64,000 bases of DNA from Leisingera aquimarina DSM 24565 (GTDB lineage Bacteria; Pseudomonadota; Alphaproteobacteria; Rhodobacterales; Rhodobacteraceae), in contig NZ_KI421504.1 of the NCBI RefSeq assembly GCF_000473165.1, forward strand, positions 3,733,070 to 3,797,069. Reading direction: 5' to 3'. Of this stretch, positions 1 through 22,617 are shown piece after piece; within the stretch, counting starts at the first letter, position 1; every line of letters starts with the position of its first letter. The notes beneath the pieces were generated by a model. That model searched no databases, was not told where the DNA came from, and saw nothing but the letters and a program-made list of their open reading frames with translations. Made by a program: the position numbers and the translations under genes.

Positions 1-290
1 GGCAATTCCGGCTGCTGAACGTTCTGGACGACTTCAACCGCGAAGGGTTGGGCATTGAGATCGGCTTTTCACTGCCTGCGGAACGGGTTGTTCGAGCCCT
101 GAACCAGATCATCGAATGGCGTGGTGCCCCTGGGACAATTCGAGCCGGCAACAGCCCGGAATACGTCAGTGGCACCCTCATGGAATGGGCCGAGAACCGG
201 GGCATCACCCTGGCCTGCATCCAGCCCGGAAAGCCCCAGCAGAACGCCTATGTCGAGCGCTGCAACCGGACGGTCCGGCACGAATGGCTT
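1..290 (+). pseudogene. IS3-family transposase OrfB, 5' fragment (integrase core)
   Basis: Reading frame from base 3 gives the rve/DDE integrase core of IS3-group Orf[18 protein letters not shown], then the IIEWRG segment, then [18 protein letters not shown]. The catalytic Glu is present in NAYVERCN. The segment that normally reads CDNGPEY reads AGNSPEY, so the second catalytic Asp is replaced by Gly. The enzyme was therefore probably dead before the reading frame was cut at 290 by the nested IS1111 element. The 5' end is beyond the window. Confidence 0.85.
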
Positions 291-294
291 CTGC

Positions 295-307
295 GGATGG
301 CTCCTGC
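295..307 (+). repeat. IS1111 subterminal inverted repeat (transposase-distal end)
   Basis: GGATGGCTCCTGC; perfect inverse of 1624-1636. It starts 4 nt inside the proposed element end at 291. Confidence 0.85.
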
Positions 308-424
308 ATTGCAAGAGTTTATTGTGACTTCAACGGTGGTCTGTCAGTACAGTCGTCTGTCCGGCCTGTTTGCGCAGCATTTTCAAAATACTGCTGGCCC
401 TGATGTGTTCCGCAAGCGAGGTTC

Positions 425-540
425 CAATCGGGTTAACGAACTCTGAGGTTCACGCCATTCGCCGGAGTGTCCTGGCTCTTGGTTGACTTGTTCCGCGTCA
501 TCACTTCTTTCGTCTTGCATCTCGTGGCGGCGCTGCCGCG
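425..540 (-). ncRNA. Putative bridge/seeker guide RNA of the IS1111 element
   Basis: This is the non-coding flank just downstream of the transposase stop, where IS1111-group elements encode their guide RNA. Read on the minus strand it contains AAGTCAA (489-483) and then CGAATGGC (461-454). The rebuilt empty target, in the same orientation, is AAGTCAAGCCATTCG. The first stretch equals its left 7 nt. The second is the reverse complement of its right 8 nt. That is the left-guide/right-guide order and strand sense described for bridge RNAs. A small hairpin GCGGC/GCCGC (527-539) lies near the presumed 5' end. The RNA ends are not defined by sequence alone. Confidence 0.6.
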
Positions 541-1560
541 TTATGCGACGGGCTGCCGGTAGTTCTGTTTTTTTGTCAGAATTGCCCAGATAACCCGCGC
601 TGACTTGTTGGCCATCGCAATGGTCGCCAGCCGGAATGGTTTTTGTACGAGGATATTAGCGGTCCACCGGTCGGCGCGCTCGGGATGGGTTTTGGCTTGC
701 AAGGCGCGCGACGTCATACCAACGACCAGCAACTTGCGGAGGTACCTGTCGCCCATTTTCGTGATCTTGCCGAGCTTCTCTTTGCCACCGCTGGACTTGT
801 TGCGCGGGGTCAAGCCCAGCCATGCAGCAAGATCCCGACCAGTTCTGAACTGGTGCCCGTCGCCAATTGTCGCGACCATGGCTGACGCTGTAATTGGCCC
901 GACACCCGGTATGCGCGTCAGGCGGCGGCAGTTTGCGTCAAGCAACGCATGTCGTTTGATGAGCTGGGTGTATCCGTCGATCCGCGCATTGAGCCCCAGC
1001 AGCTGATAGCACAGCGTTCCCAGAATACCGTTGGCTAACTCGGGCATGTCCAATTGATCCCCATCCATATGGCTTTGCGAAAAGCGGTTCACGGCTTCTA
1101 CGCCTGCCGGCAGAACATGCCCAAATTCTCGCAGGATGCTAAGGATCGTGTTTACAACCTGAGTTCTCTGCCGGACCACGAGGTCGCGGGTGCGATGCAC
1201 GGTAAGGAATGCCTGTTGGTCCTTCGACTTTATCTCAACAAACCGCATTGATGGCCGCCGGACTGCTTCGCAGATCGTCTCAGCATCAACCGCATCGGTC
1301 TTGCCGCGCTTCACATAAGGTTTGACATAGAACGCTGGCATCAGGCGGACATCGTGCCCGAGCTTGCGCAGCTCACGGCCCCAGTAATGTGCCGATCCGC
1401 ACGCTTCCATGCCAACGGTGCAGCGCGGCAGGGTTTCGAAAAATGTCAGCAGCTTCGCCCGCCTAATTGTCTTCTTGAAAATCACGCGTCCATTCTCGGA
1501 AATTCCGTGAACCTGAAACACATCCTTGGCCAAATCCAGGCCGACTGTTTTAACTGTCAT
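541..1560 (-). CDS. IS110-family (IS1111 group) DEDD transposase
   Basis: The product (339 aa) is an RNA-guided recombinase of the IS110 family. The N-terminal RuvC-like DEDD domain shows VGLDLAKDVFQVHG, GMEACGSAHYWGREL and RGKTDAVDAETI, carrying the acidic metal ligands. The C-terminal Tnp_20 domain shows RIPGVGPITASAMVATIGD and SSGGKEKLGKI, with the conserved Ser region. The ATG at 1560 is preceded by GGAGAGGAG at good spacing; the longer upstream reading is IS and host DNA. Length and motifs are complete and no stop or frameshift is seen, so the enzyme is probably functional. It is the only gene of the element inserted in the IS3 transposase. Confidence 0.93.
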   Translation of the reverse strand: MTVKTVGLDLAKDVFQVHGISENGRVIFKKTIRRAKLLTFFETLPRCTVGMEACGSAHYWGRELRKLGHDVRLMPAFYVKPYVKRGKTDAVDAETICEAVRRPSMRFVEIKSKDQQAFLTVHRTRDLVVRQRTQVVNTILSILREFGHVLPAGVEAVNRFSQSHMDGDQLDMPELANGILGTLCYQLLGLNARIDGYTQLIKRHALLDANCRRLTRIPGVGPITASAMVATIGDGHQFRTGRDLAAWLGLTPRNKSSGGKEKLGKITKMGDRYLRKLLVVGMTSRALQAKTHPERADRWTANILVQKPFRLATIAMANKSARVIWAILTKKQNYRQPVA

Positions 1561-1623
1561 AGGGTGGCTCCTCTCCTGGCAGGCCATGACAACTGCATTA
1601 TGGCGCATTGCGACGCCGGGGGA

Positions 1624-1636
1624 GCAGGAGCCATCC
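1624..1636 (-). repeat. IS1111 subterminal inverted repeat (transposase-proximal end)
   Basis: GCAGGAGCCATCC on the plus strand, the perfect inverse of 295-307. It lies between the transposase start and the proposed element end at 1646. Confidence 0.85.
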
Positions 1637-1646
1637 ACTCCATCCG

Positions 1647-1781
1647 GACTTATACATTTTCGAAAGCATCGAAGAGGTCCAGCAGATTGCCACCGGGTGG
1701 CTCTGGTCCTACAGCCATAAACGCCCGAACATGGGCAACGGCGGGATGACACCTGCACGGAAACTGAAGATGGCCGCGTAA
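1647..1781 (+). pseudogene. IS3-family transposase OrfB, 3' fragment
   Basis: The frame continues from the 5' fragment: DLYIFESIEEVQQIATGWLW, then KRPNMGNGGMTPARKLKMAA and stop TAA at 1779-1781. This is the normal C-terminus of IS3-group OrfB, so nothing is missing between 290 and 1647 except the IS1111 insertion. Confidence 0.85.
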
Positions 1782-1792
1782 AATTCTACGGC

Positions 1793-1821
1793 CAAGCCCC
1801 CGCAAAAACGGGGGATTACCA
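1793..1821 (+). repeat. Candidate right terminal inverted repeat of the IS3 element
   Basis: The stretch contains CCCCCG-caaaaa-CGGGGG followed by GATTACCA. Read inwards from 1821 it begins TGGTAATCCCCCG, the TG...-type tip expected for IS3 elements. The capsid-like reading frame on the minus strand stops inside it. The left repeat is outside the window, so this cannot be confirmed here. Confidence 0.5.
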
Positions 1822-2192
1822 CATCTCAACGATGAGGTCGATGCCGCCCCATTGGCCAATCAACAGCTCACCCCAAGCACCATAGATCAGCGCGGACAGG
1901 CCCGTCCCTGACCCTTTGGTAAGGTCGCTGGGAACATTGTTGCTGAACGCGGCCCGCGTACCGCCGATATTGAAGCCGTCGTTGTCTGCGCTGAGAATTG
2001 CACCACTACCATTTGCCATTTTCTGCGTGGACAGAAGGAGCGCTTTGACTTTGGCATTTGACAGAAAGCCAAGCGAAGTCATGGGCACATTGTGCTGTTC
2101 GACTTCGGCGGTGAGAGCCATGATCTCGGGCATAAACAGCGCACCGCCGTCAGGACCAAACGGAACTGATCCAATGCCCGGCGTGTTGAGAA
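1822..2192 (-). pseudogene. Phage major capsid protein (HK97 family), C-terminal fragment
   Basis: The minus-strand translation VLNTPGIGSVPFGPDGG, LGFLSNAKVKALLLST, LTKGSGTGLSALIYGAW and LLIGQWGGIDLIVEMW matches the C-terminal third of HK97-type major capsid proteins. The gene lacks its N-terminal part, because the fragment is fused at about 2192 to an IS5-type transposase start. It also lacks the last part of the protein, because the IS3 end interrupts it at 1821. No other phage gene is recognisable in the window, so this is a prophage relic. Confidence 0.72.
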
Positions 2193-22049: not shown

Positions 22050-22082
22050 AAAAAAACCCCAATCGGCCAAGCGAAAGGGGGT
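22050..22082 (-). terminator. Intrinsic terminator in the metZ leader
   Basis: On the minus strand ACCCC (22082-22078) pairs with GGGGT (22060-22056), directly followed by a run of Ts. It lies between the SAM-II aptamer and the metZ start, so it can act as the attenuator read-out. Confidence 0.65.
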
Positions 22083-22094
22083 CCTTCACGTCCT

Positions 22095-22152
22095 GACCTC
22101 TTTAGCGGGAATGTTTTACGTGGCCCGCAATCCGGTAACAAATCACGCACGC
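22095..22152 (-). promoter_or_regulatory. SAM-II riboswitch
   Basis: The minus-strand RNA contains CGTGATTTG, TTACCGGATTGC, GGGCCACGTAAAAC and CCCGCTAAAGAGG in order. These match the conserved SAM-II pattern: P1 halves CGTG/CACG, the ATTTG loop, ACCGG.TTGC, and the 3' CGCTAAA pseudoknot strand. It is placed upstream of metZ, a usual target in alphaproteobacteria. Confidence 0.88.
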
Positions 22153-22617
22153 CCAAGGCGGCAACCCTCAGGATTTATACGGCCTAAAGAAAACAATACA
22201 CTGATCATTTCCCTAGAAGGATCTTTGCCACGACCCTAACGCCTCTCCTCCCTCCCCGCTTGGGCATGCCTGAAAGCTGAATTTCAAGCCTTGCGGCATG
22301 CTTTGGCGAACTTGGCTGCCTGGGGCCATTTGGATGGTCCAGGCACCGGGAAGGATTACGCGGGAATACAGCAGAAAAGCCCGGTCATGCAAGGCCGAAT
22401 ACGGCCTGCAAGGCCGGATGACTTGCCCAGCAAACGGTCTGAACCTCCATGTTGGAGCCCGCATCCTCGGCCTGGGTTGCAGGGCTGGCCGTTCCTTGAC
22501 CGGCAGCGGGACAGCCCAGATGTCCGACGTAATCACAGGGTCGTGCTTGCTGCAAGTAGTGTCAGACAGCTTGCCGGTGGAACACCCAACTCCACCGGCC
22601 TCAGCCTCGGAATACCC
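22153..22617. other. Gene-free stretch upstream of the metZ leader
   Basis: About 465 nt with only short, unconvincing reading frames on both strands. It should hold the metZ promoter next to the riboswitch (a TATAAA lies at 22174-22179 on the minus strand). At the other end is an inverted repeat after the permease gene. Nothing else is recognised. Confidence 0.5.
22573..22599 (-). terminator. Hairpin downstream of the NCS1 permease
   Basis: GCCGGTGGA (22573-22581) and TCCACCGGC (22591-22599) form a perfect 9-bp stem 19 nt past the permease stop. There is no clear T-run. Confidence 0.45.

Follow-up and report, generated by a model that had tools for sequence, protein, structure and literature searches.

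The window, by which is meant the whole 64,000-nt stretch analysed (G000:C1:3733070-3797069; genome of 5.34 Mb), opens inside an IS3-family transposase gene that is split in two by an IS1111-family insertion element on the opposite strand (Table 1). The interrupted gene carries rve domains, and an uninterrupted copy of it elsewhere in the genome (L018) scores as IS3 family. The inserted element shows the features expected of an IS1111 member: a DEDD transposase with PF01548 and PF02371 in the size range of about 330-350 aa (here 339 aa), the C-terminal motif GL-P----S(t)G, which reads GLTPRNKSSG, subterminal inverted repeats of 11-13 bp (here 13 bp and perfect), a longer non-coding region 3' of the transposase (251 bases, 540 to 290) and, from the comparison with empty sites, no target-site duplication. 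The 7 and 3 bp extensions of the family are also found if the repeat, counted by eye, is taken as 15 bp with one mismatch. Among the traits of the IS110 group (IS621-type), an upstream RNA and a guide order with the bottom strand first were not seen, as the covarying RNA is downstream and the order is reversed. Domains and family traits agree with the IS1111 assignment made in a first-pass annotation of this DNA, and the element belongs to the IS1111 elements with a downstream guide RNA, a type already published.

A promoter scan of positions 280-1700 found no promoter, and a search of window positions 1-2000 against Rfam with E up to 1 gave no match. The sole Rfam match at gathering score in the whole window is a SAM_alpha riboswitch (RF00521) at 22081-22160 on the minus strand (48.1 bits, gathering score 36), outside the IS1111 element.

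Table 1. Features of the IS1111-family element and its insertion site, in window coordinates
Feature	Position	Strand	Basis or remarks
IS1111-family element	290..1645	-	1356 bp; empty sites, relatives at several sites, 7/3 extensions
Transposase, 339 aa	541..1560	-	PF01548 and PF02371, both above cut-off; NCBIfam NF033542 'IS110 family RNA-guided transposase'
Left subterminal inverted repeat GGATGGCTCCTGC	1624..1636	-	
Right subterminal inverted repeat GCAGGAGCCATCC	295..307	-	
Interrupted IS3-family transposase gene, 5' part	3..289	+	rve; start precedes the window
Interrupted IS3-family transposase gene, 3' part	1646..1781	+	
Right target half AGCCATTCG	281..289		transposase strand, read 289 down to 281
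Left target half AAGTCC	1646..1651		transposase strand, read 1651 down to 1646
Predicted guide RNA	401..503	-	helices 503-499/405-401, 477-471/421-415, 466-464/425-423, 451-448/441-438
Putative right-half (top-strand) guide, RNA CGAATGGC	454..461	-	read 461-454; covariation with right flank
Putative left-half (bottom-strand) guide, RNA TTAACCCG	429..436	-	read 436-429; covariation with left flank
AAGTCAA, constant scaffold word, rejected as left guide	483..489	-	

Insertion sites and copies in the genome

Excision of 291-1646, as proposed in the first-pass annotation, rebuilds CGAATGGCTTGACTT, and the sequence words that it quoted are all present where it had placed them. The same IS3-family gene is found uninterrupted seven times in the genome, reading CGAATGGCTT followed by GACCT (L024) or by GG[CT]C (L018-L023); L024 is identical to the rebuilt site at 14 of 15 bases, and the other six have CGAATGGCTTG in common and then diverge. 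Since these seven copies match the rebuilt site, the junction is genuine and free of a target duplication, both as had been claimed. The ends are more likely to be at 290 and 1645 than where they had been proposed, a shift of one base that leaves the length unchanged; this placement is favoured by the family's 7/3 end rule and by relatives found inserted at several sites. The single base at the end of the element is ambiguous, being C in the filled IS3 copies and A in the empty ones.

The genome holds four near-identical copies of the element with the same guides, distributed over two different sites. In a comparison of 1361 bases, two of the copies are identical, one has 2 differences and one has 9. 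Three copies (L001, L002 and L003) have 2.71 kb in common (99.5% and 99.0% identity to L001) and differ outside it, and this shared unit has the same bounds as the uninterrupted IS3 copy L018. For these three, a single insertion multiplied by the IS3 element is a better reading than three separate hits. The IS3-family element with its IS1111 passenger covers 330-3040 of L001, with 1-1820 as its part in the window, and recurs in L002 and L003.

The fourth copy (L004, on contig C5) is located in a dispersed repeat whose sequence is unrelated to the IS3 site, where the right flank retains AAGCCATTCGTG and the left flank is CCCCAAACC. Element-free relatives of this site are L227, from the same genome (95% over 56 bases), L207, from a second genome of the genus (92% over 59 bases), and, more weakly, L214 (E 0.16). 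Both L227 and L207 read CCCCAAACC-GGCCGTTGG, and the filled site has AGCCATTCG where they have GGCCGTTGG; the lengths are those expected of a clean insertion, but their right half is a different one and the exact empty form is absent among them. Copies with identical guides at unrelated targets had been named beforehand as evidence against a guide, and L004 comes part of the way, combining the same guides and right half with another left half.

About 110 bases past the L004 copy (L004 2978-3220) there is a piece of another IS1111 relative, in opposite orientation and matching window 671-913 at 74%. A more distant IS1111 relative (54% protein identity) is present in two similar copies, L009 (G000:C1:1675504) and L008 (C1:1854309), which are situated ~180 kb apart and show the same pattern of matches.

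Covariation of the non-coding end with the flanks

Relatives of the element were collected from 21 genomes of the genus (15 with a match), from 295 genomes of the family (76 with a match at E 1e-60) plus 20 regions, from GTDB contigs (the best 80 loci of 551 relatives) and from viral contigs (25 loci). Out of 165 long transposase hits 101 were kept, with an identity of 54% or higher, both repeats present and flanks of sufficient length, and 64 were dropped; 85 of the kept elements were unique, and after removal of L124, L133 and L180, in which the right end or flank was wrongly anchored, 82 were used, own ones included, most of them from Rhodobacterales-type genomes. A plasmid search matched 467 records, in 8 of which the match spans 80% or more of the element, and was excluded from the counts. 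Elements with at least 65% transposase identity are referred to as the window's clade (n=39, two own included) and those below 65% as the sister clade (n=43). Covariation was calculated for each RNA column and flank position against 1000 shuffles of the flanks among the elements.

This comparison revealed two diagonals, one in which window 461-454 follows the right flank as its antiparallel complement (summed z 30.6 for the best five positions) and one in which window 436-429 follows the left flank in the same sense (summed z 35.9, likewise for the best five), against highest wrong-orientation sums of 12.6 (right) and 13.5 (left). With a slip of one base permitted, the fit amounts to 6.61 of 8 on the right (5.09 in shuffles) and to 3.26 of 5 on the left (2.52 in shuffles), values reached by 0 of 500 shuffles in either case. 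Without slip, the observed means of both guides lie above all 500 within-RNA-cluster shuffles at three thresholds, although for the right guide the margin is small at the tightest one (5.60 vs a shuffle maximum of 5.50). On a quick maximum-likelihood tree the supported independent pairs agree by about 24 to 2.5 for the right guide and about 34 to 4 for the left, sums that differ from counts of events as one guide change affects several positions. Little or no covariation was found for the right columns R9 and R7 and the left column L-15, the outermost guide base, 436, shows no signal, and in 37 of the 82 elements the right fit is just 4 to 6 of 8. Varying in step with the right flank across the 82 elements, the right guide at 454-461, already proposed in the first-pass annotation, is judged real, and the same kind of evidence indicates that the true left guide is the stretch at 436-429, 3' of it.

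For the fold, 39 of 42 representatives were aligned (L060, L184 and L145 were left out) and RNAalifold proposed 19 pairs, 12 of them with compensatory changes; the helix coordinates in Table 1 were converted by hand. The cells of the fold are paired in 97.4% of cases against 87.1% in shuffles, and 106 are changed on both sides against 38.2, with 0 of 500 shuffles as high; versions slid along the alignment score far lower, but the structure was derived from that same alignment, which favours the unslid one. The covarying RNA is located in the non-coding end 3' of the transposase, where a guide RNA had been expected. Both putative guides are in one loop around a small hairpin in the predicted fold, the right guide on the 5' side between helices 3 and 4 and the left guide on the 3' side. 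As to a separate donor-binding loop that pairs with the ends of the element, a trait of the IS621-type bridge RNA, no diagonal with the element ends beyond the left junction was among the best, a weak test since the ends vary little, and a candidate pairing of RNA ACTCC (468-464) with the left end ATGGAGT was dropped, being absent among the best diagonals.

Fit of the window copy and alternative readings

The right half of the target fits the guide at 8 of 8 positions both at the IS3 site and at the repeat site, and of the five bases in the left half 2 fit at the IS3 site and 4 at the repeat site (L004). Among the 82 elements the left fit is 4 or 5 in 55 cases and 2 or fewer in 15. The claim that the guides predict the target of this copy holds in this way only in part. 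As the IS3 site fits mainly the right guide, the likeliest reading of the window copy is an off-target insertion, fully matched on the right and poorly on the left, which would later have been multiplied by the IS3 element.

The explanation proposed for the locus as a whole, to which a probability of roughly 0.93 is given, is that an RNA from the non-coding end 3' of the transposase would guide the IS1111 element to its target, that a full right fit together with a poor left fit would have led to insertion into the IS3-family transposase gene, and that the IS3 element would then have multiplied with its IS1111 passenger. It is the comparison of copies and relatives that brings out the ends, both putative guides, the covarying fold, the two different sites and the shared IS3 unit. 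Transcription of the RNA, its binding by the transposase, a circular intermediate and recombination would take place as in the published family. The off-target reading and the hitchhiking in the IS3 element are what we infer from the fits and the shared unit, and the window copy would illustrate how a half-fitting insertion possibly spreads inside another element.

A rather unlikely reading, but one that deserves attention, is that the IS3 site fitted well at the time of insertion and that flank or guide has drifted since, in which case the window copy would not be off-target. The IS3 flank is indeed variable, with GTATAAGTC in the filled copies and GTAGAG followed by GCC, ACC or GTC in the empty ones; however, neither version fits the left guide well, and the better left fit of L004 at its repeat site was obtained with the same guides.

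The full target with at most one mismatch occurs at 15 places in the own genome, none of them exact (12 in a reversed control), and the repeat-type target pattern at 32 places vs 21 in the reversed control. A repeat family may be the preferred target of these elements, one of the sites being in a dispersed repeat. The joined flanks of the 82 elements form a loose consensus, approximately gCCCAtAGC joined to GGACATTCGc.

Very improbable is the layout of the first-pass annotation itself, in which AAGTCAA would be the left guide and CGAATGGC the right guide, arranged in IS110 order and covering 15 contiguous bases. Both words are exact and at the right place, and in 5000 dinucleotide-preserving shuffles of the non-coding end some right-side 8-mer match arose by chance in 4.4%, some left-side 7-mer match in 7.6% and both together in 0.36%. 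Yet 37 of the 39 elements in the window's clade have AAGTCAA unchanged (the other 2 have GAGTCAA) in spite of 27 different left 5-mers, and the match of this word to the junction 7-mers, on average 1.95 of 7, is at the level of shuffled flanks (1.97), with 7 of 7 in the window copy only; the stretch that strongly covaries with the left flank is another one. The nearest relative, L101 (87%), also has AAGTCAA, though its right guide and right flank differ. On these grounds AAGTCAA is put down as scaffold sequence that resembles this IS3 flank by coincidence, and with it the contiguous 15-nt match and the order bottom then top have to be given up. Given the corrected order, top then bottom, the element is no exception to IS1111, as it would be under the earlier assignment. 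Guides assigned from one insertion alone can be misleading: in this case an exact match of 7 nt adjoining the true guide was constant RNA, and comparing relatives yields the correct pair. Still more remote is the reading that there is no guide and that the right match and the similar sites stem from common descent of the copies: three of the four own copies probably go back to a single insertion and related flanks are common to related elements, but the fourth copy keeps the right half in unrelated sequence and the signal persists in within-RNA-cluster shuffles and in independent tree pairs.

Known systems and the sister clade

Guide RNAs from the downstream non-coding region of IS1111 elements, natural redirection between relatives and the 7- and 3-bp extensions of the family are described by Siddiquee et al. 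2024 (PMC11187229), who report seekRNA for ISEc11, ISKpn4, ISPst6 and ISPa11 and give the order as top-strand guide first in IS1111 and the reverse in IS110. Like these four elements (PMC11187229), the window element has a downstream non-coding region, subterminal repeats, 7/3 extensions and no duplication, and the predicted right (top-strand) guide is 5' of the left (bottom-strand) one; unlike them it has another target and other, putative guides. For IS110, Durrant et al. 2024 (PMC11208160) report that guides and targets covary; they also describe bridge RNAs in the right end of IS1111 elements and mention possible donor-binding nucleotides in IS1111 multi-loops. As in the IS621-type bridge RNA, two guides would pair with opposite strands of two target halves, whereas in IS621 the RNA is encoded upstream of the gene and has the bottom-strand guide ahead of the top-strand one (PMC11208160). 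The transposase is homologous to the IS621 recombinase, but only residues 212-328 (C-terminal) match the solved IS621 and ISCro4 chains.

The nearest transposase among the fetched loci, which for GTDB were the best 80 of 551, is that of L101 in the MAG Rhodobacteraceae DT_103 (JABSSD010000113.1), 87% identical. L101 has the same RNA scaffold with AAGTCAACC, but its right guide and right flank are different ones (7 of 9 positions pair, counted by eye), and its left end is lost at the contig edge. A search of open-licence papers gave no title on this element or clade. With their naturally changed guides, the 82 elements amount to a natural test of the IS1111 rule.

It is conceivable, as a tentative and clade-specific suggestion, that in the sister clade the left guide reads across the boundary into the element and so recognises the occupied site, the flank together with the element end. 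If true, the RNA would share in end recognition and excision, a matter that the 2024 paper leaves open (PMC11187229). In 37 of the 43 sister-clade elements the junction base of the left guide (RNA column at window 430) is the same as the first base of the element itself, and in the 26 where element base and target base differ, the guide base agrees with the element in 20, with the target in 3 and with neither in 3. On a maximum-likelihood tree 5 of 5 supported pairs differing in state A agree. The corresponding base in the window's clade equals the element base in 1 of 39 elements and the target base in 11 of 39.
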